This document shows positions 5,751 to 19,662 of a stretch of 64,000 nucleotides of DNA, piece after piece. Source of the DNA: an uncultured Lachnospiraceae bacterium (GTDB lineage Bacteria > Bacillota > Clostridia > Lachnospirales > Lachnospiraceae); assembly GCA_900314085.1 (NCBI GenBank), contig OMTX01000023.1, positions 62,001 through 126,000 on the forward strand. Direction: 5' to 3'. Under the pieces are notes generated by a model. That model was not told where the DNA came from and searched no databases. It saw nothing but the letters and a program-made list of their open reading frames with translations. Numbering within the stretch: the first letter of the stretch is position 1; each line of letters begins with the position of its first letter. The position numbers and the translations under genes were made by a program.

Positions 5751-6797
5751 TTATCCCTGACAATAATCTCCCCGGCTCACCACCACCTGATAGCCTGTGG
5801 AGGCAATCCGCATCTCCATACAATTACGGCATTCGGCAGCTTCGTCGCCGGTACAGATTTTTCCGTCATAGAGCAGGTATTTGTCACGGACACCTCTCGG
5901 AGACAGGTTTGGCATGACGACATTGGCACCGGCCAGAATGCCCTTCTCCCGCCCACGGGGATCAATCGTCCCGAGAGCTGTTGTCGCCGGGAGCAGGCAG
6001 CGGGGAAAAAGAAGCCGCAGAATGCCGAGAAGATGCAGGGTGTCTGTCAGTGTCCCGTCCGGCTCATGGGCAAAGGGCGTTCCCCCGGCATGGATGAAGG
6101 GGCCGATGCCGATCATGTGGGGAGTCAGGCTCTGCAGGAAACGAAGGTCTGCGATGATATTTTCGGCCGTCTGGCCGGGAGATCCCACCATAAAGCCGGC
6201 TCCCACCTGGTAGCCGATTTCCTTCAGGTCATAGAGACACCTTTTCCTGTTTTCTCCCGAAAGGGCCGGCGGATGCAGCTTGACGTAGTGGACAGGATCT
6301 GCGGTTTCTTCCCGGAGGAGGTAGCGGTCAGCGCCGGCATCAAAGTAGGCTTCATATTCCTCCCTGGTTTTTTCGCCGATGGATAATGTGACTGCGCAGT
6401 CCGGATGAGCCTCCTTGATGGCTGAAACCAGATGACAGATGTCCGTGCAGGAATAGGTCAGATCTTCTCCGCTCTGCAGAACGAATGTGCGAAAGCCCAG
6501 CGCATACCCCTGGTTGCAGCAGGCAAGGATTTCGTCTGCAGAAAGCCGGTACCGGCTCACGCCGGAGGCAGCCGCCCGGATTCCGCAGTAGTAGCAGTCA
6601 TTCCTGCAGTAATTTGAAAACTCGATGAGCCCCCGCAGATAGACAGCTTTGTCGTAGTGGCGCTCGCGAACGGCTCGCGCACGGGCATAGAGCAGCTCCT
6701 CCTCTTTTTCTGTCAGCGATGTCAGGAGGGCATAAAGGTCTTCGTCCGGCAGATTCTGCTCCGCTGCTAATTTTTCGATACGATCAATATTTGTCAT
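5751..6797 (-). CDS. hydE: [FeFe] hydrogenase maturation radical SAM enzyme HydE
   Basis: HydE is a radical SAM enzyme that acts in building the two-iron subsite of the [FeFe] hydrogenase H-cluster, normally on the Fe(CO)2CN-cysteine unit made by HydG. The 348-residue protein has the SAM-cluster motif CRNDCYYC (Cys64, Cys68, Cys71) after the family's EFSNY lead-in. It also keeps the C-terminal second-cluster motif CX7CX2C (ICTGDEAAECRNC), which is present in only some HydE proteins. GEDLTYS, MVGSPGQT and MPNLSPRGVRDKY are further family blocks. It overlaps the end of hydF by 14 bases and is the last gene of the cluster. HydG is not encoded in the window. Confidence 0.93.
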   Translation of the reverse strand: MTNIDRIEKLAAEQNLPDEDLYALLTSLTEKEEELLYARARAVRERHYDKAVYLRGLIEFSNYCRNDCYYCGIRAAASGVSRYRLSADEILACCNQGYALGFRTFVLQSGEDLTYSCTDICHLVSAIKEAHPDCAVTLSIGEKTREEYEAYFDAGADRYLLREETADPVHYVKLHPPALSGENRKRCLYDLKEIGYQVGAGFMVGSPGQTAENIIADLRFLQSLTPHMIGIGPFIHAGGTPFAHEPDGTLTDTLHLLGILRLLFPRCLLPATTALGTIDPRGREKGILAGANVVMPNLSPRGVRDKYLLYDGKICTGDEAAECRNCMEMRIASTGYQVVVSRGDYCQG

Positions 6798-8076
6798 TTG
6801 AAGAAAGAAGGTCTGTTCGCCCGATGGCCGTCAGGCTTCGCTGTAAAATGCCGTTCATGTAGGCAATCAGAATGCCGTAATTGGTGAAGGGAATGCCCTG
6901 GTCCTCGGCCTGCCGCCGGCGGAAACGGACTTCGCGCTCGTTCAGCATGCAGCCGCCGCAGTGGATGACCATATGATAAGGGGACAGGTCCTCCGGGAAA
7001 GAAAAACCGCTCGTCGTTTCAATTTCAAAGGATTTCTGCGTGTACTTTTTGAGCCAGTTCGGGATTTTTACCGTACCGATATCGTCGCACTGCCGGTGGT
7101 GGGTACAACCCTCGGAAATAAGCACCCGGTCGCCGTCCTGAAGGCTCTCGGCAGCATAAACTCCCCGGGCTGCCGTATCGAGAATCCCTTTGTAGCGGGC
7201 CATCAGGATGGAGAAGGAGGCCAGGGGGATGTCCTCAGGGACGACCTTGGACACGTGTTCGAAGGCCTGGGAATCCGTGATTACCATGTGGATCGGCTTG
7301 CCGGACTTCAGCAGGAAGGACAATGTGTGTTCCAGATCCTCCGGCTGGCAGCAGATGGGCTCAGCGTGGTGGTCCAGGATTTCGTGAATCATCATCTGTT
7401 CGGGCAGTATCAGGCGCCCTTTGGGAGCGGACGTATCCTGAGGGATGACGAGGACGAAAAGGTCGTGCTCGTCTGCCAGGCCGTCCAAAAGTCCCTTCGA
7501 TTCCATCGTCGCCTTGCCCAGACGGCCAATCAGGCTCTTCAGTTCATAGATGTGATAACCTGTTTTGGCGCTTACCCGTATTTCTCCGTATTCCGCATGG
7601 GCGTTGTATTTCGCAATCACAGCGGCGTTTTCGTCTTGTCCGTTGATCTCCGGATTTTTTACGGCAACGGCATCTTCTGAGAGATCTGCCTTATTATAAG
7701 CAACGACGTAGGGCAGCTTCTTCTCCCGGAAAATATGAATCAGGGCTTCGTCATTCGGCCGCAGGCCGGCCTCGCCATCAACGACAAGAACGGCAATATC
7801 TACGCGGTTCAAAATCTCCTTTGTCTTTTTTACCCGTTTTTCCCCGAGCTCGCCAACATCGTCGATGCCCGGCGTGTCAATGACGACGACCGGACCGATC
7901 GGCGGAATTTCCATGGCCTTCTTCACGGGATCCGTTGTCGTGCCCGGCGTCCCGGAAACGACGGAAAGTTCCTGTTCAGTGACTGCGTTGACGACCGAAG
8001 ATTTGCCTGCATTCCGGATTCCGAAGAAACCGATATGCACCCGCTCCGACGACGGCGCCTCATCCATCATACCCAT
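6784..8076 (-). CDS. hydF: [FeFe] hydrogenase maturation GTPase HydF
   Basis: HydF is the scaffold that receives the immature two-iron subsite and delivers it to apo-hydrogenase. The 430-residue protein has a G domain (Walker A FFGIRNAGKSS near residues 18-28; DTPGIDD switch II; NKADL), a dimerisation domain and a C-terminal cluster domain. The cluster ligands are visible as CTHHRQCDD followed by HCGGC, the family's CxH...HCxxC pattern. AAAGGAG lies 6 bases before the ATG. A 99-base gap separates it from the NifK-like gene upstream and hydE overlaps its end. All catalytic and ligand motifs are intact, so it should be functional. Confidence 0.95.
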   Translation of the reverse strand: MGMMDEAPSSERVHIGFFGIRNAGKSSVVNAVTEQELSVVSGTPGTTTDPVKKAMEIPPIGPVVVIDTPGIDDVGELGEKRVKKTKEILNRVDIAVLVVDGEAGLRPNDEALIHIFREKKLPYVVAYNKADLSEDAVAVKNPEINGQDENAAVIAKYNAHAEYGEIRVSAKTGYHIYELKSLIGRLGKATMESKGLLDGLADEHDLFVLVIPQDTSAPKGRLILPEQMMIHEILDHHAEPICCQPEDLEHTLSFLLKSGKPIHMVITDSQAFEHVSKVVPEDIPLASFSILMARYKGILDTAARGVYAAESLQDGDRVLISEGCTHHRQCDDIGTVKIPNWLKKYTQKSFEIETTSGFSFPEDLSPYHMVIHCGGCMLNEREVRFRRRQAEDQGIPFTNYGILIAYMNGILQRSLTAIGRTDLLSSNDKY

Positions 8077-8175: not shown

Positions 8176-9414
8176 TTAAATGTCGAAATAATTGATGTAG
8201 TGTCCCTGATACTGCCGGCCAGACATGGCAAGGACGGGTTCCGGAACGAAACGGACAGTATCCGGCAGAAGCAGGCCATACATAGGATCCGCATAAACCG
8301 TAATCTGTGCTTTCGGATATCTTTCAAAGATTTCCTTTAAGGCGGAAAGATAGCCTTCTTCCCCGCAGAAATATTTTCCGTTTGCGGCAAGCAAAGCCCT
8401 TCCGGCTTCAAAGGGGCACAAAACAAGCGTCTTGTCTGCCTCCCGATTGAAGGCCGCAAGGGAGGAGGCGAGCACTGCTTCACCAATGTAGACTGCGATT
8501 TTCAATGGGGAAAACCTGTCCGCGTCCTGCCCTGGCAAAATAGGATTCCTTTGTTTCCCCATCCTGCCGTCAGGCGAACAGTTTTCAAAGAACGGAGAGG
8601 CGTCAGCATAGATTTTTTCCCCGCTTAATCCGGCTGCCGCCGCATCTTTCAGGGCTTCTTCCACCGCATCTGCTGCGTCCGGAGAAACCGGACAGCCAAT
8701 CACATAGGGGGTTCCGTAAATTCTTTTCAGATATTCTGCCAAAGGCAGGGCGGTTTCGGAAAGGACCAGGTTGACTGCCGCATCACCGGTTTTCCCGATA
8801 TTTGCCGTCTTCTCTCCCATCGCCCAGACGGCATTGACAGAAAAACCGCAGCCTTTCAGCAGGGAAATCAGATCATACGCTGTATCGCGGTGGCTGAAGC
8901 TCAGCGGCGTCAGTCCCAGCAGATTGATTGAATCGTCTGCGGCCAGTGTCAGGCGTCTTTGATCCGGCAGCATTTTTTTCGCATAGGAAAGGAAAGCCTG
9001 CCGGATTCCGGTGACATAGTCGTGCATCCCGTTTGAGAGAACATAGAAAGTTGGAATCCCGCTCTCCCGCTCGATGATGCGGCAGATTCCTGTGAAGTCC
9101 GTTCCGTTCAAAAAAGGCACCGGGGAATTACAGATGGCAATGAAGGCCGGCGCGGGGGAAATGCCGTCTGCTGCTTCGAGAATGTCAGCGATGAATTTTC
9201 TGTCATTGCCCAGGACCGCATCCCTCATATGTAGCCCGGAGATAAAGATGTTTGACTCCGTCTCGTACCAGCGCAGCTCGTCGTGGGTATTGTAGGTGGA
9301 ATTGCAGCCGGAGGGATCGTGGATGACCACCATTCCGCCAAGTTCATAGAGGGCGGAGGCGATGCCGGAGACGTCCCCTGCGTAGACCGGCAGCAGGCGG
9401 TAGCTTTCTTTCAT
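8176..9414 (-). CDS. Nitrogenase component 1-like protein, NifK-type, second copy
   Basis: The start is ATG at 9414, overlapping the previous stop as ATGA with a GGGAGGGG site; a longer frame reaching to 9627 lies inside the upstream gene. The 412-residue product is a clear paralogue of the NifK-like protein at 16357-17475: both start with about 35 residues ending in a strand and Cys37 (DPSGC here, DAGGC there), share 'EP/EL-RW', a DAV-G-DR block and a PVP..GTD loop. Cys37 matches the second P-cluster Cys of NifK (Cys95 in Azotobacter). The third ligand position is Pro98, with Cys95 three residues earlier. The protein is far shorter than true NifK (about 520). With the NifD-like partner just upstream it could hold one [4Fe-4S] at the interface. 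Function unknown. Confidence 0.8.
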   Translation of the reverse strand: MKESYRLLPVYAGDVSGIASALYELGGMVVIHDPSGCNSTYNTHDELRWYETESNIFISGLHMRDAVLGNDRKFIADILEAADGISPAPAFIAICNSPVPFLNGTDFTGICRIIERESGIPTFYVLSNGMHDYVTGIRQAFLSYAKKMLPDQRRLTLAADDSINLLGLTPLSFSHRDTAYDLISLLKGCGFSVNAVWAMGEKTANIGKTGDAAVNLVLSETALPLAEYLKRIYGTPYVIGCPVSPDAADAVEEALKDAAAAGLSGEKIYADASPFFENCSPDGRMGKQRNPILPGQDADRFSPLKIAVYIGEAVLASSLAAFNREADKTLVLCPFEAGRALLAANGKYFCGEEGYLSALKEIFERYPKAQITVYADPMYGLLLPDTVRFVPEPVLAMSGRQYQGHYINYFDI

Positions 9415-10961
9415 GATGCCCCTCCCTTCGCACGGCCAGAATGTGCTATAGGCTCCTTTTCTTCGGTCGGAAAAAGCCTCCGGTACTGCTCCGTTTTCTC
9501 CGGGAAGTCTTCCACAAGCGATGGCCAGCCCAGCCCCTTCTTCTGGACGATTTCTTCCGGATTTTTCGGCTTTTTTACGGCAGCAATCATGGCGGCACAG
9601 AGCCTTTGCAGGCCGTCGTATCCCCAATTCCCGTCATTTTCAATCCAGTTGACGAAATAGGGGGTATCGGCAAAGAATGCAGCTTTGGGGCCCAGAGCCA
9701 GAACATTTTCTCTTTCCGGCCGATCCAGATTTTCCTGTTTTCGAACAAGTGTACTATTCGTGGATTGAAGGAGGAGGTCCGGATACTTTTCCTGCAGCCA
9801 GAGAAAGTCCTCATGCTCTTCCGGAGAGATACTGTCCAGGTAAACACGGGTAACCCGAAAGCCTTCTTGCAGAAGGCGGCGGGCAAAGGACAGGGGGCGG
9901 GAAAAGGCCAGGTAATCAAGTTCGACATCCCGCCCTCCCACGGTTTCCCGGGCAGCGGCAAAAGCCTGTTCGGTCTTCTCTTTTTCAGAGGAAAGAAAGG
10001 CGGTAATGTCAAAGGCGCGTGCTGACTTTTCATTTGACTGCGAGACGGACGGCGGAAGTTTTTTTGCTGTTTGACCGGATTTCTGCAGGTCTCCACCCAT
10101 TCCACAGATCCCCAGGGCCTCCTGTAAAGACAAAAGAGCCGCGTCAATTTCGGCATCGCCGGCCGTCGGCGGCAGATAGAGTTCCATTCGCCCGTTCTTT
10201 TCGGCGGCAGCCTTCAGCCCGTAAACAGACAGAGCCGACCGTGTGATATAGAGCCCGGCATTCCCCATGGAAAGATAATCTTCAAAGGTTTTGCAGTCCT
10301 GGATCTGGCGGATGGTAAAGCCTGCGACGGCAAGCACCCTGGAAATATCGGCCGATGCAGGAAGGCGGAGGTTGTCACCGAGTACCGAAATCATATTATT
10401 CTCAAAATGAGATGCGGTCAGCAGATCCATCATGGATTTCCGCTGCTTCTGTTCGGGCGTCAGGGAAACCTTCTGCATAATCGGGTCCATAAAGCAGGGG
10501 ACGAAAGCAATGTCCGGAAAGCGGTTACCGAGGGTGTCATAGATGTAGCGAAAATCTGCTCCTGTCTGGTGGTGCATGCAGACAAGAAAGAGTTCGACAG
10601 CCTTGGGACGGACCGGAAGCTTTTCAATGACATCGGCGACGCCTTCAATTGTCACTTCTTCCAGTCGCCCGTTGACGACTTCGTTTTCATCGGGCATTAC
10701 AGAGGAAATGCGGCTCAACGCGCCCATCTCCGCTGCTGTCAGAATGACTCCCCGCAGGCAGTTGTCCGAGCAGACATAAATCTGCTGTGTCTCCGGAAGG
10801 AGCATTCCGGTGTGGACGATATTCCAGTTCTCATGAACCGGACAGTTGTACTCGAGGCGCCAGGGAAAGAGGGGGCGTTCCTTCGCGTCACCGATGCGCA
10901 CGACGGCTGCCGTTTTGGAATCGTACCGATATTCACTTGTCCCGCCAACCCGTGTCAGCAT
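9411..10961 (-). CDS. Nitrogenase component 1-like protein, NifD-type, second copy
   Basis: The 516-residue protein has the nitrogenase component-1 layout by eye. Three cysteines sit where NifD holds its P-cluster: Cys40 (EYNCPVH), Cys68 (CSDNCLRG) and Cys128 (LVCMHHQTGADF, six residues before the conserved Gly). Cys64 is extra. The C-terminal block ending in W(I)ENDGNWGYDGLQRL matches the 'GYxGL' end of the other NifD-like protein in this cluster. No counterpart of the cofactor ligands Cys275 and His442 of NifD is apparent, so a FeMo-co-type site is unlikely. A low-complexity stretch near residues 300-330 may be a linker. It overlaps its NifK-like partner by 4 bases, which suggests a heterodimer. 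Related scaffolds (NifEN) and reductases (BchNB) use the same architecture. Confidence 0.78.
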   Translation of the reverse strand: MLTRVGGTSEYRYDSKTAAVVRIGDAKERPLFPWRLEYNCPVHENWNIVHTGMLLPETQQIYVCSDNCLRGVILTAAEMGALSRISSVMPDENEVVNGRLEEVTIEGVADVIEKLPVRPKAVELFLVCMHHQTGADFRYIYDTLGNRFPDIAFVPCFMDPIMQKVSLTPEQKQRKSMMDLLTASHFENNMISVLGDNLRLPASADISRVLAVAGFTIRQIQDCKTFEDYLSMGNAGLYITRSALSVYGLKAAAEKNGRMELYLPPTAGDAEIDAALLSLQEALGICGMGGDLQKSGQTAKKLPPSVSQSNEKSARAFDITAFLSSEKEKTEQAFAAARETVGGRDVELDYLAFSRPLSFARRLLQEGFRVTRVYLDSISPEEHEDFLWLQEKYPDLLLQSTNSTLVRKQENLDRPERENVLALGPKAAFFADTPYFVNWIENDGNWGYDGLQRLCAAMIAAVKKPKNPEEIVQKKGLGWPSLVEDFPEKTEQYRRLFPTEEKEPIAHSGRAKGGAS

Positions 10962-11051
10962 AGTTTTTCCACTCCGCTTCGATCAGAAGCATCCCCTGAA
11001 ACGGCAAAACACACTTTTGTATGAAAAACGCTTGCCAGTAATCTGTCTGCA

Positions 11052-11306
11052 TCACTCCGACGTGATGTTCGAATAGGCCGTTTTTGCGCTGACGCCGGGA
11101 ATCTGTCCCAGTTTGCCGGAAAGCCCGCTGATGAAAGGCTGGGGGGCATCAACTGCCAGGCTGATTAGGTTGATATTCCGTGCCTTGTAGGGAATGCCCA
11201 TGCGGCCGATGATATAGTCGCGGGCCGCATGCAGAAGCTCGTTCACCTGCTCCACGGCATCCGCATTTTCAATCACGATTGCAATTACAGCTACTCTTGT
11301 CTCCAT
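11052..11306 (-). CDS. TM1266-family iron-only hydrogenase system regulator
   Basis: This 84-residue protein matches the TM1266 family (putative iron-only hydrogenase system regulator), a ferredoxin-like fold related to the C-terminal ligand domain of NikR/ACT proteins. It starts with METRVAVIAIVIEN, then a helix, then YIIGRMGIPYKARNINLISL, and ends in LSGKLGQIPGVSAKTAYS, the recognisable family signature. It has no DNA-binding domain of its own. An AGGAG site lies 6 bases before the ATG. A TTGACA sequence (about 11356-11361 on the minus strand) in the 124-base gap upstream could be part of an internal promoter, but its -10 partner is poor. The family is usually found near hydE/F/G genes; here it sits between the hyp genes and the second D/K-like pair. 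Confidence 0.88.
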   Translation of the reverse strand: METRVAVIAIVIENADAVEQVNELLHAARDYIIGRMGIPYKARNINLISLAVDAPQPFISGLSGKLGQIPGVSAKTAYSNITSE

Positions 11307-11430
11307 GAAAAACTCCTATTTTCCGTATCATCGAAAAATTTTTCTGTTGAAAAACTCCATGTCAAAAACAAAAAGCGCGTTTTTTTAAGGAGTAAATTTT
11401 CAATTCTTTCCCACGTATTCGCTTCCCGCA

Positions 11431-12441
11431 TCAGCAGATCCGCGGCAGCAGCTCGTTCCCCGGTTCCGGCAGGATGGTCTGTGCTCCGATTTCCGTCGTC
11501 ATGATGACCAAGCCCTTGTTCTCTTCCGTGACATGGCCAATGACAGCAGCGCCGCTCGTATATACCTGCCCTTTCAAAACGCCAAGGAGGTCAGACGTAT
11601 GTTCGTGGGGACAGAACATCACGAGGCGGCCTTCGCATGCCAGGTAAAGGGGCTCAAGCCCGAGCATGGATGTCACGCCCCGGACGGCAGGATCAACGGG
11701 AATGGCTTCTGCTGAAAGGTGAATGCCGACATTTGATTCCGCGGCAATTTCATAGAGGACAGTGCCTACCCCACCACGGGTGGCGTCCCGGATGACGTGA
11801 AGTCCCGGTACTGCCTTCAGAGCTGCCTCTACCGGTTTCCACAGGGGAGCGCAGTCTGATGTGACGTCAGCATCGATTCCGTAGTCATCCCGGGCAAGAA
11901 GAATCGTGCAGCCGTGGCGGCCGATGTCACCCGTCACGATAATATCATCGAAAGGCTCTGCCAGAGCGCCGGAAGTATGTACATCCGGCAGCAGTTCGCC
12001 GACACCGGTAGTTGTAATGAAGACGCCGCCGCACTGTCCTTTTCCGGCCACTTTTGTGTCGCCGGCCACGAGATGCACGCCGGCTTCGTCCGCCGTCTTT
12101 GCCATAGCGGAAGCGATTTTGTCAAGGTCTGCCACCGGAAACCCTTCTTCGATGACAAAGGCACACGTCATATAGAGAGGACGGGCTCCCATGCAGGAGA
12201 GGTCGTTTACGGTGCCGCAGATAGAGAGCTTGCCAATGTTTCCGCCCGGGAAAAACTGCGGGGAAACGATGAAGCCGTCCGTTGTCATCGCAATTTTCCC
12301 ATTTGGCGCCGGCAGGACGGATGCGTCGTCTGCCGTGAAATACGGATTCTCGAAGTATTTTTTGAAAATACCGGAGATCAGGGCGGATGTCTGTTTCCCG
12401 CCCGCCCCATGGGCCATGGTTATCGTGTCACTATTCTTCAT
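11431..12441 (-). CDS. hypE: Hydrogenase maturation protein HypE
   Basis: HypE takes the carbamoyl group from HypF on its C-terminal Cys and dehydrates it with ATP to a thiocyanate, the source of the cyanide ligands. The 336-residue protein shows the AIR-synthase-like fold: MAHGAGG near the N-terminus, TADDASVLP, GGNIGKLSICGTVNDL, GDTKVAGKG and DATRGGVGT. It ends with the diagnostic LLPRIC, whose last residue is the essential Cys. The gene follows hypD after 106 bases. An intact HypE argues that cyanide ligands are really made. Confidence 0.97.
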   Translation of the reverse strand: MKNSDTITMAHGAGGKQTSALISGIFKKYFENPYFTADDASVLPAPNGKIAMTTDGFIVSPQFFPGGNIGKLSICGTVNDLSCMGARPLYMTCAFVIEEGFPVADLDKIASAMAKTADEAGVHLVAGDTKVAGKGQCGGVFITTTGVGELLPDVHTSGALAEPFDDIIVTGDIGRHGCTILLARDDYGIDADVTSDCAPLWKPVEAALKAVPGLHVIRDATRGGVGTVLYEIAAESNVGIHLSAEAIPVDPAVRGVTSMLGLEPLYLACEGRLVMFCPHEHTSDLLGVLKGQVYTSGAAVIGHVTEENKGLVIMTTEIGAQTILPEPGNELLPRIC

Positions 12442-12547
12442 CAGATGAATCCTTTCACACGAATAGAAATGATGTTCTGCATGTCAAAAAATGTTTCTTC
12501 CCCCCATATACCGGACTTTGCCTGAAAACAGGAATTCCCCGTGCGCA

Positions 12548-13603
12548 TCATATTCCTCCGCGCTGATTTCCATAGAGATACCAGGCAGAGCAGGCACCCT
12601 CTGACGACACCATACAGGCACCGACCGGGTGTTCGGGGGTACAGGCTTTTCCGAAAAGGGGGCAGGCAGTGGGCAGGATCCGTCCCCGCAGGACCTCTCC
12701 ACAGTGGCAGGCGGGATTGCCGCGCCCTTCCATCGGTGGCACAGAGTACTTCTTCCGCGCGTCATAGGAAGCGTATTCCTCCCGAAGGCAGAGTCCGGAG
12801 CCGGAAATCATGCCGATTCCCCGCCACTCGCTGTCACAGGGCGTCATGACTTTATGAATAATATTTACGGCTTCCGGACTGCCCTCCTGCCGGACCACCC
12901 GCGGATAGCAGTTGACAAAGAAGGGCTTCCCCTTTTTGAAATTTGTTACGGCCACTGCCAGCGCTGTTAAGAGCTCTCCGGCAGTAAATCCCGCACAGAC
13001 GCCACTGACACCTTCTCCCACCAGTTGCTCACAGATTGCCGTTCCGGTAATCGCATGGACATGACCGGGATAGAGAAAGAGATCTGTCGAGCCCTTCATG
13101 GCCTCGTATGCGCCAGGCATGGTCTTGTTTGCAGTCAGCAGGGAAAAGTTGGAAAGTCCGGCTTCCCGGGCCGCCAAAACGGCCAGGCAGTTGGCCGGCG
13201 TTGTTGTCTCAAAGCCGACGGAGAGAAAGACCACCTGCTCCTCCTGATGCTGTGCCGCATAGGTTTCCGCATCAAGGGGCGAATAGACGACTTTCACCTG
13301 AGCGCCTTTTCCCCGGGCCGTCTGCAGGGAGTCGGCGCTGCCAGGCACCCGCACGAGGTCGCCGAAAGTGCAGATGGTGCAGCCCTTTTCGAGAGCGAGA
13401 TATATGGCTTCGTCAATGAAGCCGACCGGTGTCACGCAGACGGGACATCCCGGTCCGCTGATGAGTTCAATCGTTTCCGGCAGCACATTGCGGATGCCCT
13501 GGCGGAAAATTTCGTGGGTGTGAGTCCCGCACACCTCCATGATGCGGCAGTGTGCCCCGTCATAGTTTTGAAGAATTTCACGCGCACGTTCGATGGAGCT
13601 CAT
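12548..13603 (-). CDS. hypD: Hydrogenase maturation protein HypD
   Basis: HypD, an iron-sulfur protein, is the platform with HypC on which the Fe(CN)2CO unit is assembled. The 351-residue protein has the characteristic motifs MEVCGTHTHEIFRQGI (about residues 23-38), GPGCPVCVTP (about 50-59), GFETTTP, the NYVR-like NCYPRVV, and the C-terminal Cys-rich part (GLCLREEY, NPACHCGEVLRG, CPLFGKACTPEHPVGACMVSSEGAC) that binds the [4Fe-4S] cluster. The start ATG overlaps the hypC stop as ATGA. Nothing is missing compared with the family. Confidence 0.97.
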   Translation of the reverse strand: MSSIERAREILQNYDGAHCRIMEVCGTHTHEIFRQGIRNVLPETIELISGPGCPVCVTPVGFIDEAIYLALEKGCTICTFGDLVRVPGSADSLQTARGKGAQVKVVYSPLDAETYAAQHQEEQVVFLSVGFETTTPANCLAVLAAREAGLSNFSLLTANKTMPGAYEAMKGSTDLFLYPGHVHAITGTAICEQLVGEGVSGVCAGFTAGELLTALAVAVTNFKKGKPFFVNCYPRVVRQEGSPEAVNIIHKVMTPCDSEWRGIGMISGSGLCLREEYASYDARKKYSVPPMEGRGNPACHCGEVLRGRILPTACPLFGKACTPEHPVGACMVSSEGACSAWYLYGNQRGGI

Positions 13604-13809
13604 TGCAGTGCCTCCAGCAGCTGATCGGTTTCCTCTTCATCGTCATCCGTGATCTTTGCAATCGCCGTTCCGGCGTGCACCATGACATAGTCTCCCGGCG
13701 TCAGGTCATTTAAAAGAGCTGCGGAAACCGTTCGTTTCGCGCCACCCGCGTCAACTATGCAGGTGTCCTTGCTGATACTCACTACTTTGGCAGAAAGTCC
13801 TACACACAT
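13600..13809 (-). CDS. hypC: Hydrogenase maturation chaperone HypC
   Basis: HypC is a small chaperone that holds the Fe unit with HypD and delivers it to the large subunit of [NiFe] hydrogenase. This 69-residue copy begins MCVGLSAKV with the essential Cys2, and has the OB-fold ending GDYVMVHAGTAIAKI that is typical for the family. The acidic tail (DDDEEETDQ) is ordinary. It overlaps hypD by 4 bases and follows hypF by 49 bases, with an AAGGATGAAG ribosome site. No hydrogenase large subunit lies in the window, so the client of this HypC is an open question. Confidence 0.96.
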   Translation of the reverse strand: MCVGLSAKVVSISKDTCIVDAGGAKRTVSAALLNDLTPGDYVMVHAGTAIAKITDDDEEETDQLLEALQ

Positions 13810-13858
13810 TTCTTCTTCATCCTTTCACTGAAAGCGGATTTAAAAAAATCCATCCTGT

Positions 13859-16360
13859 TCATTGAATTATTAATTTGCCCCTTTGGAGCGCGTTCATAGC
13901 ATATATCGCCTGCCCCAGACAGATGCCGCCGTCATTGGGTGGCAGCAGGCGGTGACGGAGGACGGTAAAGCCCTCGCGTTCGAGACCGCCTTCCACAAGG
14001 GAAAGCAGCAGACGGTTTTGGAAGACACCGCCTGTCAGCGCTGTGACAGATACGCCGGTCTCCTGCCGCAGGGAAACCGCTTTGTTCACGATCATTGCCG
14101 AAAGATTTTTGTGGAACAAATATGCCAGGCGGTCAGTATCTGTCCTGCCGGCCAATCTCTTTTCCACAAGCCAGGCAAAGAGACGATCAGTCGGAAGGCA
14201 TGTCTTTTCCTGCCGGATGGCAGGCGCCTTTTCTTTCGAGGCTTTCTCGTTCGAATCCTGTATAGCATCTGCCCCGAAAGAAAAAGTCTCAAAAGCAGCC
14301 GGACACAGCTCGTCGGGCAGGGGCTTTCCGGAAATAGCATCCTGTCCCCGCAGAGCTGCATACATGAGGGCGGTCGCTGCCTCTCCTTCAAAGGTGGATT
14401 CCTGCCGTATTCCCAGCAGGGCAGACACGGCATCGAAAAGACGGCCGGCACTGGTCGAGGCCACCGCATTCATCCGGTGCGCAAAGAGCATCCGCTGGGC
14501 TTTGACGGTCTTTTCATTGGCGAGATTCAGCTGCAATGCTATGTCTTCTGCCCTCTCTCCGCAAAGGGAAAATAGCATGGAAACAGCAATCCGCCAGCCT
14601 TCCCTGGCGGAGGCATCCCCACCGATCTGCAGGAAGGGTTTGATGGAGGACAGACGTTCAAAGCCGTCGAAGTCGCAGAGCAGGAACTCACCGCCCCAGA
14701 TGGTCCGGTCTGTCCCGTACCCGGTTCCGTCAAAGGAAATTCCGATCACCGGATCCGAAAAATCGTTCTCTCCCATGCAGGAAAGGACATGGGCGTAATG
14801 GTGCTGAACCCGGATCAGAGGAATCCCATGCTCATCAGCCAGTTTTTCTGCCAGAATACCGGAATTATACCTGGGATGCAGATCCGCGCAGATAATGTCC
14901 GGCTTCATCTCCAGCAGGCTTTCCGTTTTTTCGATAGCATCCTCCAAGGCGTGCACTGTCCGAATGTCGGCAAGGTCACCGACATAGGCAGACGGATAAA
15001 AATTCTGATCGACGGCCAGGCAGAAGGTATTCTTGAGTTCGCCGCCGATTCCCAAAGCCCTTCCATGGAAGGAATCGCTCATGATATAGGGAAGCGGCGC
15101 ATAGCCCCGGGACCGACGGATCATGTAAGGACTGCCCTTATAGAAATCCATGACGGAGTCGTCCGTCCGGATACGGATGTCACGGTTGTTTGTCAGAATA
15201 GCGTCGCAGAAGCCGCTGATCTCGTCCAGAGCCTCCGCATCCGTAGAAGCAATCGGGGCACCGGAGGCATTGCCGCTCGTCATCACAAGGACGTCTGACA
15301 TATCCGTGACCTCATCCGGATAGGAGAATAATAAAAGCTGCACCGGCGCGTACGGAAGCATAATGCCCACCGTCGGATTGTCCGGAGCGACGCTTTCCGC
15401 GATTTTCCCGCCTGCCCTCTTTGCGAGCAGCAGGATCGGCTTCTGCGGGCCTGTCAGAATCTTCTCCTGGATACTGTCAAATACACATTCTCTTGCTGCG
15501 GTTCCCAAGTCTTTTGCCATGACGGCAAAGGGCTTCATCGGGCGCTTCTTGAGCTGACGCAGCCTTTTTACCGCTTCTCCATTCGCTGCATCACAGGCCA
15601 GGTGAAAACCTCCGATGCCTTTGACGGCCACAATGCCGCCGCCGGAGAGAATTTTCCTCGCATGGGTGATCGCCGCCCCTCCCCGCAGAGACGCTTCCTT
15701 TCCCAGAATATATACTTCCGGGCCGCAAACCTTGCAGCAGACCGGCTGGGCGTCAAAGCGGCGGGAGTTCCTGTCATAATACTCTTTCTCACATTCCGGG
15801 CACATGGGAAAGGCCTTCATGGAGGTCCGTTCCCGGTCATAGGGCAGGCCTTCCAGAATCGAAAAACGCGGGCCGCAGAGGGTACAGTTGATGAAGGGGT
15901 GCAGATAGCGCCGGTTTTTCGCATCAAACAGTTCTTCACGACAGGTATCACAAATAGCGATGTCCGGTGAAATGAAAATCTCCCCCCGCTCCTTTTTGCT
16001 CTCGACAATATGAAAACCGGTGAAAAAGGGTTGGCTAAATTCTGTCAGGTCATGTGTTTCCGGAAGAGTACCGGCTTCCTTTCGGGAAAGTTCTTCTACC
16101 GGCAGGTCATTTGCCGGCAGATCCTGCACATCAGTCTTCAGAATGACGGCCCGCTCCGGGGCTTCGTCTGTAACCAGCCGAATGAAGTCCGTGACAGCAC
16201 TGTTCTGCCCCTCTGCGAGGATCTCCACATAGGAGCCCCGGTTTGAAACCTGCCCACTGATTCCGCAGGCTTTGGCATGGCGGACGACCGTGGGCCGAAA
16301 ACCGACTCCCTGAACGATGCCATAGACACGGATTCGTTTTCTTACAAGCGCTTCCCTCAT
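13859..16360 (-). CDS. hypF: Carbamoyltransferase HypF
   Basis: HypF converts carbamoyl phosphate to carbamoyl-AMP and transfers the carbamoyl group to HypE. The 833-residue protein has the full domain order: N-terminal acylphosphatase (VYGIVQGVGFRPTVVRHA, about 12-29), two zinc fingers of the CX2CX18CX2C type (about 137-220; CDTC/CTLC and CPEC/CKVC), a YrdC-like domain (GGGIVAVKGIGGFHLACDA; MTSGNASGAPI) and a Kae1-like carbamoyltransferase domain (VQHHYAHVLSCM; GISFDGTGYGTD; TGGVFQNRLL). It overlaps the NifK-like gene by 4 bases (ATGA), so it is translationally linked to the nitrogenase-like genes. That link is not usual for hypF. Confidence 0.97.
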   Translation of the reverse strand: MREALVRKRIRVYGIVQGVGFRPTVVRHAKACGISGQVSNRGSYVEILAEGQNSAVTDFIRLVTDEAPERAVILKTDVQDLPANDLPVEELSRKEAGTLPETHDLTEFSQPFFTGFHIVESKKERGEIFISPDIAICDTCREELFDAKNRRYLHPFINCTLCGPRFSILEGLPYDRERTSMKAFPMCPECEKEYYDRNSRRFDAQPVCCKVCGPEVYILGKEASLRGGAAITHARKILSGGGIVAVKGIGGFHLACDAANGEAVKRLRQLKKRPMKPFAVMAKDLGTAARECVFDSIQEKILTGPQKPILLLAKRAGGKIAESVAPDNPTVGIMLPYAPVQLLLFSYPDEVTDMSDVLVMTSGNASGAPIASTDAEALDEISGFCDAILTNNRDIRIRTDDSVMDFYKGSPYMIRRSRGYAPLPYIMSDSFHGRALGIGGELKNTFCLAVDQNFYPSAYVGDLADIRTVHALEDAIEKTESLLEMKPDIICADLHPRYNSGILAEKLADEHGIPLIRVQHHYAHVLSCMGENDFSDPVIGISFDGTGYGTDRTIWGGEFLLCDFDGFERLSSIKPFLQIGGDASAREGWRIAVSMLFSLCGERAEDIALQLNLANEKTVKAQRMLFAHRMNAVASTSAGRLFDAVSALLGIRQESTFEGEAATALMYAALRGQDAISGKPLPDELCPAAFETFSFGADAIQDSNEKASKEKAPAIRQEKTCLPTDRLFAWLVEKRLAGRTDTDRLAYLFHKNLSAMIVNKAVSLRQETGVSVTALTGGVFQNRLLLSLVEGGLEREGFTVLRHRLLPPNDGGICLGQAIYAMNALQRGKLIIQ

Positions 16361-17475
16361 GCCCGCCGCTTTCCCGAAAGAGCAAATTCCGGAATATGAA
16401 TGAAAGTGCCAGAGTAATCCGGAATCAGCTTCTTCTGTACCTCATCAGCCATAATAATTTCCGATTTCTGTTCTGTCACCAGCCGGGTGAAGTCGTCCTC
16501 TTCCCGAAGCCGGAAAACGTTCTCATTTTTGCTTGCAAACCAGGATGCTATCGTGACGTCTGCTGTCGGCAGATACTGAAGAATTGCCTTTCCAAGGGAC
16601 TGGGCGAAAACCGACGAGTTGACAATCAGTATGCTTTGCGCTCCGCCAGGCAGGTTTTCCGCCTCTGCAGTGTTTCCGGTGTCCGGTTGGCCCGAATCAG
16701 GGAACAGAATCTTCAGATAATCATCCGCCCCAGGGAAATCAACCCGGTAAGGCGTTTTGAACTTCTCCTGCAGAAAGCTGCAGGCAGCGACGCCATCCTC
16801 GGAAACCGCAATATTCAGCACGTTTGCAGGTGCGTTTCTGTAAGCGGAGAAATCAGCATCCGCCCCGTAAAATATTATTTTTGAAAAGCCTTCCCTCCGC
16901 AGGGCAGCTGAAATCCGCTTCCTGTCAGCATCATATTCAGGCAGATCCAAAGGCGACACCCCGAAAAGGCCAACACGCTTTTCGTCGACGGGAATAGCAG
17001 CAAACAGGTTCCTTTCAGCCAACTCCTGAAGCAGGGACAAATAGGCCAGCGACTCTCCCCGGTCGAAGGTATGCATGCCGTCAGTCGGAATCGCAAGCAC
17101 AGGAAGAGGCGGCAGGGAAAGCTCTGAAAGTTTCTGATCAAGCATTCGCTTCAAAGCGGAAAAATCCGTCCCGATGACTGCCGGGACAGGCGTTCCGACA
17201 AAGGCAACGAAATTTGCTTTCAATTTGCGGACACAGTCAACCGTTTTTTTGATGAGCAGGCGGTCCCGCCCCATCACGGCATCCATGTCCCGGAGGCCGG
17301 CAGAGAATACAGCCGATCGTTCCGATGACCAGCGCGGCTCGTCAAAACCGCAGATATTGCCGGCGCAGCCGCCGGCATCAATAATGACGATAATTCCGCC
17401 AAGAGAATAAAGAACGGAGACTGCCCCGGACTGATCCGGAGCAAAGGGAGTCAGCGCCTTACGAAGCCCTTTCAT
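16357..17475 (-). CDS. Nitrogenase component 1-like protein, NifK-type, first copy
   Basis: This 372-residue protein is a paralogue of the NifK-like protein at 8176-9414 and is shorter than any standard NifK. Cys37 (DAGGC) aligns with the second P-cluster Cys of NifK; Cys42 is extra; the third ligand position is Pro in the loop TPVPAVIGTD. A NSSVFA block and a final ADEVQKKLIP keep the Rossmann-like repeats of the component-1 fold. The N-terminal segment that would hold the first P-cluster Cys is absent. The gene overlaps the NifD-like gene before it by 17 bases and hypF after it by 4 bases. The likely partner is the NifD-like protein and the likely electron donor is the NifH-type protein; the substrate is unknown. 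Confidence 0.78.
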   Translation of the reverse strand: MKGLRKALTPFAPDQSGAVSVLYSLGGIIVIIDAGGCAGNICGFDEPRWSSERSAVFSAGLRDMDAVMGRDRLLIKKTVDCVRKLKANFVAFVGTPVPAVIGTDFSALKRMLDQKLSELSLPPLPVLAIPTDGMHTFDRGESLAYLSLLQELAERNLFAAIPVDEKRVGLFGVSPLDLPEYDADRKRISAALRREGFSKIIFYGADADFSAYRNAPANVLNIAVSEDGVAACSFLQEKFKTPYRVDFPGADDYLKILFPDSGQPDTGNTAEAENLPGGAQSILIVNSSVFAQSLGKAILQYLPTADVTIASWFASKNENVFRLREEDDFTRLVTEQKSEIIMADEVQKKLIPDYSGTFIHIPEFALSGKRRA

Positions 17476-18847
17476 GGCGTTCCTCCCCTCTGACAGCCAA
17501 AGCGATGGCTTCCACGAGCTTTTTCAGTCCCATGTAGCCAAAGGGCTGTTCATCGCTATTCCAATAGACATGGATGTCATCCGGATGATACCAGGCTGCA
17601 TCCTTGCCGAGCGTTACCAGCCGCTTCTTTCGGCAAATTGGTTCAGCTTCACAGGAAGCAGATTCTTCCTGTTTTCCTGTCCCGAAGTCATAATAGATCA
17701 TCGTGGGCTCCATATTGGAATAGACACGTGTCTCCGGCGACAGCCCGGCAAGCGCTTTCAGATAATATTCATCCTCCCTCGCGGGATTCCGGAAGATTTC
17801 CAGAATATCAAATCCTGCCTCGCAAAACGTCAGGGCAAGTTCGAAGGAGTTGGCATTTATCGTTTCACCTATGGAAAAAACAAGGTCAGGATAAGCTTTT
17901 TTCAGAGCAGCAAGTCCATCTTCCGCTGCTGACTTTCCCTTAGATGAATCCCATTTCACGCCCAATGCGCCTGCAAGAGCCTCATACTGCTTTTCAATCC
18001 GATCCGGTCCGTAGAAACGGGAAAGCTCTATATAGGGAATGGAGAGGCGGTCTGCCAGGTCGTCTGCCGCTGCCCTGGCTTCGGAATTCAATACCAGATT
18101 GAAATTGGCCTCCCCCATTCTGCAGAACTCAAGAATATCCGGGCAGGTGGAGATTTCCCGGATGTGTTTCACCCCGATATCCTGGAGCAGGGAAAAAAGC
18201 TCGCTCTCAGCATCCACCGGGGCGAAGTATCCGAGCAGATTTACGGAAGCTCCCCGCTTTTTCTGCTGCGGAAGAAGGGAATAAAGAGACTGCCGTATCT
18301 GTACCATTGGCGGCTTCCTTCCTTCCCGTGTCAGCGCGTACATATAGCAGGGACGAACAGGAATGCCGGCAGCCGTTTCTGCCGCCCGGCATACCCTCTC
18401 CATATCCGTTCCCAGAAGGGCATCCACGCAGGTGATGCAGACCATTACCAGGGAAGGCCTTTCCACGCAGGAATCCACGATTTCCCTGACTGCTTCCGGA
18501 ATCTTTTTTAAGTGTCTGGCCGTCACCAGATCCGTTTCGCTGATCTCCAGGTAGAAAAAACGGTCCTCATAGCCCCTGATCGCAGTGATTTCCGATGTGT
18601 TTCGTCCGCAGCAGCCCGGAGAGACAATCAGCATGACTGATCCCGGGATGGCAAGTCCAGCCCTTTTCACGCCAAAGCCTTCAGCTCCGGGAGAATTAAA
18701 AGCCAGAGCGGCCGGGGAATTGTAGATCAGGTGGCGCTCTGTCCGATAGATATCCGGCAGGCGCTCAGGTCCAAGTTCCGCCAGGTCGGCAACCGTATGG
18801 CTTTCAGGAAGCATGCCGGTATTCACCCGTTTCGAATCGGCGCGCAT
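17459..18847 (-). CDS. Nitrogenase component 1-like protein, NifD-type, first copy
   Basis: I start at ATG 18847 (462 residues, TGATG overlap with the gene before); an in-frame GTG at 18856 is possible. The N-terminal block NSPAALAFNSPGAEGFG matches the start of the NifD core, but Ala stands where NifD has its first P-cluster Cys. The second position is a Cys pair (VSPGCCGR, Cys79-Cys80) and the third is ITCVDALLGTD (Cys140, with Cys137 three residues before). In the region of FeMo-co ligand Cys275 the aligned sequence reads NLVLNSEA, so that Cys is replaced; near His442 the alignment has a His one place off, which I do not count as a ligand. The C-terminus has the usual GYMGL block. Probable heterodimer with the next gene product. 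Confidence 0.82.
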   Translation of the reverse strand: MRADSKRVNTGMLPESHTVADLAELGPERLPDIYRTERHLIYNSPAALAFNSPGAEGFGVKRAGLAIPGSVMLIVSPGCCGRNTSEITAIRGYEDRFFYLEISETDLVTARHLKKIPEAVREIVDSCVERPSLVMVCITCVDALLGTDMERVCRAAETAAGIPVRPCYMYALTREGRKPPMVQIRQSLYSLLPQQKKRGASVNLLGYFAPVDAESELFSLLQDIGVKHIREISTCPDILEFCRMGEANFNLVLNSEARAAADDLADRLSIPYIELSRFYGPDRIEKQYEALAGALGVKWDSSKGKSAAEDGLAALKKAYPDLVFSIGETINANSFELALTFCEAGFDILEIFRNPAREDEYYLKALAGLSPETRVYSNMEPTMIYYDFGTGKQEESASCEAEPICRKKRLVTLGKDAAWYHPDDIHVYWNSDEQPFGYMGLKKLVEAIALAVRGEERHERAS

Positions 18848-19662
18848 CACAGGCACCCGCAGTCGGAAAGCTTTCCGGGATGAATAGCAGACTCTTCAAA
18901 TTCTCCCGCTGCCTCCTCAGAAAGCAGCCGGTCGGCAAGATCAAAGAAATTCCGGGCAAGAGGACTTTCCGGAGCCAGTTCCACAATTGTCTTTCCGGCA
19001 TCTTCCGCCGTCTGAAAAGCAGGATCTCTCGGAATATCCGCCACGATTGAAAGTCTGTTTTTTTCCGCAAAGGCCTCGACTTTCTCCCTTTCATCCTCCA
19101 CATTCCGCCGGTTCAAAATAATACCTTCTACTGACGCATAGCCCCTGTCCTTGAAATTTTCAACGGCTGAATTGATGTTTCCGGCTGCATAGAGGGCCAT
19201 CTTTTCTCCGCTGGTAACGATCAAAACCCGATTGGCAAAGCCCTCACGGATCGGCGCGGCAAAACCTCCGCAGACCACATCGCCAAGAACATCAAAGAGG
19301 ACGACGTCCGGCTGCTCCTTCTCCATCAGCTCCATTTCATCCAAAAGGTTGAAAGTAGAAATAATTCCGCGGCCGGCGCAGCCCAGCCCCGGTGTGGGGC
19401 CGCCGGTCTCTATGCAGAGGACATTGCCAAAGCCCCGGGCGGAAATCTCATCGAGGGAAGCAGGATCCGCATCGTGTTCCCTGAGATAGTTCATGATAGG
19501 CTCAATGGGCTTCCCGGACAGGAGATTTCCGGTGGAATCCGCTTTGGGATCGCAGCCAATCTGAATGACTTTTTTCCCCCGCATGGCAAAAGCCGCCGAC
19601 AGGTTCGAAGTGATGGTTGACTTGCCAATGCCGCCCTTGCCGTAGATTGCAATTTTGATCAT
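18847..19662 (-). CDS. NifH-type nitrogenase reductase-like ATPase
   Basis: The 271-residue protein is a complete NifH-family iron protein. It has Walker [10 protein letters not shown] (residues 8-16), switch I DPKADST (38-44), both cluster ligands (Cys94 in GLGCAGRG and Cys130 in DVVCGGFA) and the switch II DVLGD (123-127). Arg97 matches the Arg ADP-ribosylated in some nitrogenases. As a dimer it should carry one [4Fe-4S] and pass electrons to a component-1 partner with ATP hydrolysis. The C-terminus is unusual, ending DCGCL with Cys268 and Cys270. I start at ATG 19662, which has TTGGAG 8 bases upstream; the longer frame to 19719 runs through a terminator-like hairpin. It is the first gene of the cluster. 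Confidence 0.92.

Follow-up and report, generated by a model that had tools for sequence, protein, structure and literature searches.

How might a bacterium equip the H-cluster of an [FeFe]-hydrogenase with its CO and CN ligands when HydG, the accepted source of both, is missing? The question is raised by an operon in a stretch of 64,000 nucleotides (the window) from an uncultured Lachnospiraceae bacterium (assembly GCA_900314085.1, contig OMTX01000023.1, positions 62,001 to 126,000 of the forward strand). Open reading frames (ORFs) and family searches define a single minus-strand operon of overlapping or closely spaced genes, NifH-D1-K1-HypF-HypC-HypD-HypE-TM1266-D2-K2-HydF-HydE, in which the D and K proteins are nitrogenase-component-1-like partners; D1/K1 is referred to here as unit 1, D2/K2 as unit 2 and a NifH-D-K set as HDK. 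A conserved gene order, the absence of HydG from all 50 cluster genomes surveyed and the presence of an [FeFe]-hydrogenase in every one of them make it probable that the cluster does HydG's job in another way. HypCDEF and two ATP-driven nitrogenase-like complexes are likely to replace HydG in H-cluster assembly, forming a HydG-independent maturation system whose chemistry we infer. The first-pass annotation of this DNA was concerned with a duplication of the D/K pair between positions 8176 and 17475; D1, NifH, HydF and HydE lie outside that interval, and so does the lack of HydG, which is the larger point.

A scan of species genomes with a D1 alignment yielded 416 relatives, of which the best 80 were kept as loci; the genomes of 50 of these 80 loci make up the cluster-genome census. 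HydG scores above its curated cut-off in none of the 50. A weaker match occurs in 49 of them, mostly HydE-sized, and a search with the HydE model identifies this match as HydE itself in the genomes of Blautia luti, B. schinkii and Roseburia faecis. The genome of the window likewise gives only a 53.9-bit cross-match at HydE. A search of 61 relatives, separate from the census, finds HydG above the cut-off in 26. The [FeFe]-hydrogenase family (PF02906) is matched in 50/50 cluster genomes, the cysteine motifs for the H-cluster are intact in all 30 loci drawn from that search, and the HydA of the window's own genome keeps them. ThiH was considered as a general stand-in for HydG and rejected, because a match of ThiH size (169-206 bits, taken by us as ThiH from its size and score) is found in only 18 of the 50 cluster genomes, with none of that size in the others.

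The association also appears when 246 genomes, sampled evenly across the order, are examined. HydF is present in 126 of these; the 110 that also have HydG include none with the cluster, and the 16 that lack HydG include nine with it, so that all nine cluster genomes are HydF-positive and HydG-negative (Fisher p = 7e-10, with kinship ignored). The D1 search behind this count gave 15 genomes at 1e-40, and the nine above 400 bits were taken as cluster genomes, since the remaining six, at 172-220 bits, are members of a family linked to ABC transporters. The two samples overlap (B. schinkii is in both, as G094 and G257, and G001/G063 likewise), and we therefore keep their counts apart. A HydF tree of 64 rows requires no fewer than six changes of the cluster label on its starred branches; in five independent pairs HydG changes in the direction opposite to the cluster in 4.4 on average, shows no difference in the rest, and follows the cluster in none. 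The HydFs of cluster genomes do not form a separate clade, and HydF thus seems able to serve either route. Physiology is available for two carriers. B. luti both produces and consumes H2, and has a hydrogenase activity of 20-640 mU/mg, according to a 2026 paper (PMC12773636) that also cites about 23,000 mU/mg for B. schinkii and whose main text never uses the word 'maturation'. The sequenced genomes of both species have the cluster and lack HydG.

Several observations weigh against replacement of HydG. The independent-pair test, with five pairs on starred branches, has a median p of 0.125 and cannot reach p < 0.05, and the strains of B. luti and B. schinkii that were assayed may differ from those sequenced. 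In the window's own genome, with an assembly that is 88.6% complete, the only HydA match is, by our reading of its motifs, of the group B type, and there is a second HypC-HypD-HypE set near a transposase-like gene, with a HypD that is about 44% identical. Seven of the 246 genomes of the order sample have HydF with neither HydG nor a detected cluster. Two of these (G235 and G258) come from a cluster-bearing genus and may reflect assembly gaps; the other five (G043, G052, G139, G213 and G240) need an explanation other than a gap, and the nearest HydF row to that of G213 comes from a genome with HydG. A further HydF-positive genome without HydG (G322, locus L199) has NifH and a fused D1-K1 of 592 amino acids with no adjoining hyp genes. 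Finally, the nearly complete genome of G027, from the Lachnospiraceae, encodes a HydA with intact motifs, with no HydF, HydG or HydE found; given genomes of this kind, an intact motif is not by itself proof that an H-cluster is made.

The loci of these exceptional genomes can be described briefly. HydF, accompanied by HydE in some, is found at L201 (G052), L202 and L203 (G043), L204 (G213), L205 (G139) and L206 (G240), which represent either gaps or a third solution. Intact or near-intact HydA in nearly complete genomes with no HydG or HydE found occurs at L216 (G027), L219 (G013), L218 (G008) and L217 (G022).

The best 80 loci come from the Lachnospiraceae, Coriobacteriaceae and Atopobiaceae, and the carriers include B. 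luti, B. schinkii, Eubacterium ramulus, Coprococcus comes, R. faecis, Anaerobutyricum hallii and Porcincola intestinalis. NifH and D1 are each present in 80/80 loci and K1 in 78/80. Where HypE is present, HypC and HypD accompany D1 in 67/67 loci and HypF in 66/67; D2 is found in 61 of the 63 loci that extend at least 2.5 kb past HypE. Unit 1 is located with hypFCDE and unit 2 often adjoins hydF/hydE, and linkage to hydE, hydF or TM1266 appears repeatedly in both Bacillota and Actinomycetota. D1 and K1 are fused in 24 of 83 D1 ORFs, and four D2 ORFs of 727-732 residues carry an N-terminal NifH sequence. In the family f11 the order is TM1266-HydF-HydE-H2-D2-K2-H1-D1-K1-HypF-C-D-E, with two complete, adjoining HDK triplets. 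Some local variants were also observed: a second NifH (NifH2) and D2 occupy a single ORF at L097, L104, L144 and L150, HydE and HydF sit between D1 and K1 at L136 and L139, and two cluster genomes (at G065:C10 and G066:C43) have an extra NifH, scoring 427-428 bits and much nearer to true NifH.

Within the window, where every gene of the operon is on the minus strand, curated models identify the hydrogenase maturation proteins by score. HypF carbamoyltransferase (13859..16360; TIGR00143, 702 bits), the HypC chaperone (13600..13809; TIGR00074, 62 bits), the HypD iron scaffold (12548..13603; TIGR00075, 361 bits) and HypE, with a C-terminal PRIC (11431..12441; TIGR02124, 397 bits), are all above the cut-offs for [NiFe]-maturation proteins. 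The cut-offs are likewise exceeded by the two HydEFG members, the H-cluster scaffold GTPase HydF (6784..8076; TIGR03918, 504 bits) and the H-cluster radical SAM maturase HydE (5751..6797; TIGR03956, 538 bits), and by the TM1266-family protein, a putative regulator of [FeFe]-hydrogenase systems (11052..11306; TIGR03959, 105 bits).

The nitrogenase-like proteins can be placed by their Pfam and equivalog scores. The NifH-like ATP-dependent reductase, H1 (18847..19662; PF00142, 284 bits), is the only PF00142 match above 40 bits in the 88.6% complete assembly and lies under all Nif, Bch and Cfb equivalog cut-offs, including those for BchL of the dark-operative protochlorophyllide reductase (DPOR; 201 against 345 bits) and for CfbC (300 against 402). 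Among its relatives the P-loop is kept in 80/80 and the Cys132-type motif in 79/80. D1 (17459..18856; 93.9 bits), K1 (16357..17475; 49.1 bits) and K2 (8176..9414; 89.1 bits) exceed the PF00148 cut-off of 28.6 bits; the start of K2 is most likely the ATG at 9414, overlapping the end of D2. The BchB equivalog cut-off is 490 bits, of which D1 reaches only 26 and K2 only 46. The divergent D2 (9411..10961), at 17.9 bits, is below the PF00148 cut-off, yet its AlphaFold2 model (pLDDT 83, pTM 0.84) matches NifDK, NifEN and DPOR chains with Z ~21 over 365-392 residues. For unit 1, the natural D1-K1 fusion of a relative (L095; model pLDDT 78) has NifEN as its best structural match and also matches NifDK.

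The same three cluster cysteines align in units 1 and 2 (C83 and C143 of D1, C68 and C128 of D2, and C37 of both K1 and K2), in the columns of the P-cluster ligands C88 and C154 of NifD and C95 of NifK. They are kept in 13/13 unit-1, 12/12 unit-2 and 7/7 stand-alone sets. The other three of the six P-cluster cysteines are missing, and there is no conserved Cys or His in either unit at the alignment places of the FeMoco ligands, Cys275 and His442 of NifD. The cysteine numbers fit those in PMC3464626. The retention of three cysteines and the loss of the remaining ligands suggest a single Fe-S cluster between D and K, with no FeMoco.

What such proteins could contribute can be considered against the known pathways. 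HypF and HypE convert carbamoyl phosphate to cyanide, which is delivered to iron on HypCD, and HydE and HydF complete the di-iron cluster. In the cluster loci the key cysteines of HypC (Cys2, 70/70), HypD (70/70) and HypE (the C-terminal Cys, 69/69) are kept, so the cyanide branch looks intact. In the standard pathway, HydG hands an Fe(Cys)(CO)2(CN) unit to HydE, whose presumed product is Fe2(SH)2(CN)2(CO)4 (PMC11736057). HypCDEF build Fe(CN)2CO; where its CO comes from in anaerobes is not known, and one candidate, CO2, needs about -530 mV and ATP (PMC12134894). Per iron, the H-cluster requires two CO and one CN, and the Hyp proteins alone give one CO and two CN. This ratio is wrong for the H-cluster, and two extra ATP-driven reductases would be the obvious candidates to correct it.

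In the mechanism we propose, the NifH-like protein would drive both D1K1 and D2K2, passing ATP-driven low-potential electrons through the one Fe-S cluster between D and K. The two complexes would supply HydG's contribution, above all the CO ligands on iron, and might also reduce the iron before hand-over. Unit 1, located with hypFCDE, probably acts on iron bound to HypCD; unit 2, often adjoining hydF/hydE, probably passes the iron unit to the products of those genes. A more specific scheme can be offered only tentatively: this would be a third kind of hydrogenase maturation, in which HypCDEF provide iron-bound cyanide and the two nitrogenase-like reductases each install one CO, for example from CO2, on the same iron to give Fe(CO)2(CN), the unit for which HydG elsewhere uses tyrosine.

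The operon might instead make a different metal cofactor, with HydE and HydF obtaining CO and CN from free diatomics and the loss of HydG being a coincidence of lineage. HydE and HydF without HydG have been reported to activate HydA to about 1% with free diatomics (PMC9431212), and the Fisher test leaves kinship in. However, a coincidence of lineage sits poorly with the recurrence of the hydE/hydF/TM1266 linkage in two phyla, with a HydG count of 0/50, and with a cluster label that changes repeatedly on the HydF tree without HydG ever changing in the same direction, and we regard this explanation as unlikely. Much less credible again is that HypCDEF, being known [NiFe] maturases, serve a [NiFe]-hydrogenase and have the nitrogenase-like genes as unrelated neighbours. 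The second hypCDE set in the window's genome could be taken in its favour, as could a [NiFe] large-subunit match in eight of the 50 cluster genomes, weak and limited in each to the first 69-70 model positions. The other 42 give no such match (the window's own genome being outside this search), and it is the absence of large subunits from most cluster genomes that largely refutes the idea. In addition, no ORF of the operon is recognised as hypA or hypB, whole genomes not having been searched for them, and HypD profile scores set the Hyp proteins of the cluster apart as a group of their own, at about 600 and more as against 533-542 for orphan sets and 292-386 for other sets. Orphan HypF-HypD-HypE sets without adjoining Hyd genes were seen at L060, L062 and L063 (in the same-genus genomes G004, G003 and G002), with HypD 59-60% identical to that of the window. 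Replacement of HydG thus remains the explanation we favour.

The presence of two D/K units in one operon is itself a matter of interest. The first-pass annotation placed them on either side of hypFCDE and the TM1266 gene, which is borne out by curated models for the intervening genes, and took them for a duplication, which is largely right. The layout it described for the K-like pair is present in both proteins: Cys37, then DE-RW, MDAV/RDAV-G-DR and PVPxxxGTD. It is an informative layout, common to K1, K2 and only one outside family among those aligned. K1 and K2 align by BLASTP at 107 bits (E 3e-30, 28% identity over 254 columns) and D1 and D2 at 59.3 bits (E 1e-13, 20% identity over 436 columns), ending in GYMGL/GYDGL. 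A likeness so far beyond chance indicates that D1/D2 and K1/K2 are paralogous pairs. The GYxGL block that was also cited is indeed in both D proteins; as evidence of duplication it is weak and was set aside, because outgroup nitrogenase-like proteins carry it or close forms and it is general in the superfamily.

Joint trees unite D1, D2 and the D of stand-alone HDK sets in one clade, and the K proteins likewise; each clade has an SH-aLRT of 100 and is distinct from Nif and the other nitrogenase-like proteins. The stand-alone sets (L184-L189 and L055) are thus the closest outside relatives of both units, and recruitment of the pairs from two different families, which would have placed each nearer to a different outside family, is rejected. 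These sets adjoin an ABC transporter (not in the seen part of L184), of the iron/siderophore type by our reading of the ORFs, and a Crp-like regulator is nearby in several. The trees cover chosen loci within length limits, by which unit 2 of L141 was excluded. In a concatenated D+K tree, each unit forms a clade of its own (100/100) that spans Lachnospiraceae and f11 and, for unit 1, one Atopobiaceae row; the two clades have several internal splits in common (f11 apart, a Blautia pair, an E. ramulus-R. faecis pair). The two units therefore separated before the cluster spread, which answers the earlier question of the age of the duplication.

Whether the units are each other's closest relatives is less certain. 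The best concatenated tree joins them with support of 52/91, and the NifH tree, with H1 at 100/100 and H2 at 99/97, favours the same by joining H1 and H2 (90/92); sisterhood is thus the best but unproven arrangement. The approximately unbiased (AU) test rejects neither unit 1 with the stand-alone family (p 0.33) nor unit 2 with it (p 0.44), and the unit nearer to that family differs between the D tree and the K tree. It is conceivable, if the less probable course, that the two pairs were recruited separately from this one ABC-transporter-linked family rather than duplicated in the cluster, a history that is compatible with replacement of HydG; the existence of the tandem HDK-HDK arrangement argues against it, as do the joined H1 and H2 and the best concatenated tree. 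Duplication of a whole HDK triplet, giving both units from one ancestral HDK set, is the history we infer. The first-pass annotation also had one NifH-type gene serving both pairs. This is so in the window's genome; as an ancestral state it was rejected, in view of the tandem HDK-HDK loci, the H1/H2 tree and the presence of NifH2 in 36 of 63 D2 loci. Among 26 chosen genomes searched for NifH-type genes, the window's genome and most of those without NifH2 at the locus have one such gene above 100 bits, so the single NifH of the window's lineage is most likely the result of loss. The division into one catalytic and one scaffold complex that it drew from nifDK/nifEN may or may not hold here, both units having kept the three cluster cysteines. 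Overall, then, that annotation's interpretation is partly supported.

Parts of this arrangement have been described before. Dos Santos et al. (2012; PMC3464626) noted two linked HDK copies beside hydrogenase maturation proteins in Coprococcus catus and others, suggested a role in metallocluster assembly, and described for C. catus and Dorea longicatena the same pattern of two D cysteines and one K cysteine with no FeMoco ligands. The operon of the window belongs to this double-copy group, minus one of the two NifH copies. The main text of that paper does not contain the terms HydG, HydF or HypD, and its passages on these genes include no maturase-gene census and no link to HydG loss. No paper linking nitrogenase-like genes with HydG loss was among those listed by a literature search that reached few subscription papers; the doubling next to such maturation genes has thus been known since 2012, and it is the replacement of HydG that was not found among the papers listed.

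The cluster shares HydE, HydF, TM1266 and the target [FeFe]-hydrogenase with the HydEFG system, and differs in having Hyp and nitrogenase-like genes instead of HydG. With HypABCDEF assembly of the [NiFe] cofactor it has in common HypC, D, E and F, here paired with HydEF. NifDK/NifEN offer a parallel in fold, in the NifH partner and in a doubled component-1 pair within one system, but in a different gene context and with the FeMoco ligands and the full set of P-cluster cysteines that the cluster proteins lack. DPOR (BchNB) and CfbCD resemble it in pairing a component-1 complex, probably with one Fe-S cluster, and a reductase of the NifH type, though again the gene context is different and the cluster proteins fall far under the DPOR and CfbC cut-offs.

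If whole groups of gut bacteria do make their [FeFe]-hydrogenases without HydG, there would be a second biological route to the H-cluster; the groups concerned are members of Blautia, Roseburia, Anaerobutyricum and Coprococcus, Eubacterium ramulus and many Coriobacteria. It would also offer a handle on the anaerobic origin of CO ligands, since the low potential and ATP that the CO2 candidate needs (PMC12134894) could be delivered by a NifH-type protein. The cluster would then be a meeting place of nitrogenase-type and both hydrogenase-type assembly machines. The Fe(CO)2(CN) route, if it exists, would involve the first nitrogenase relative to build the organometallic ligands of a hydrogenase, and would serve many common H2-cycling bacteria of the gut.

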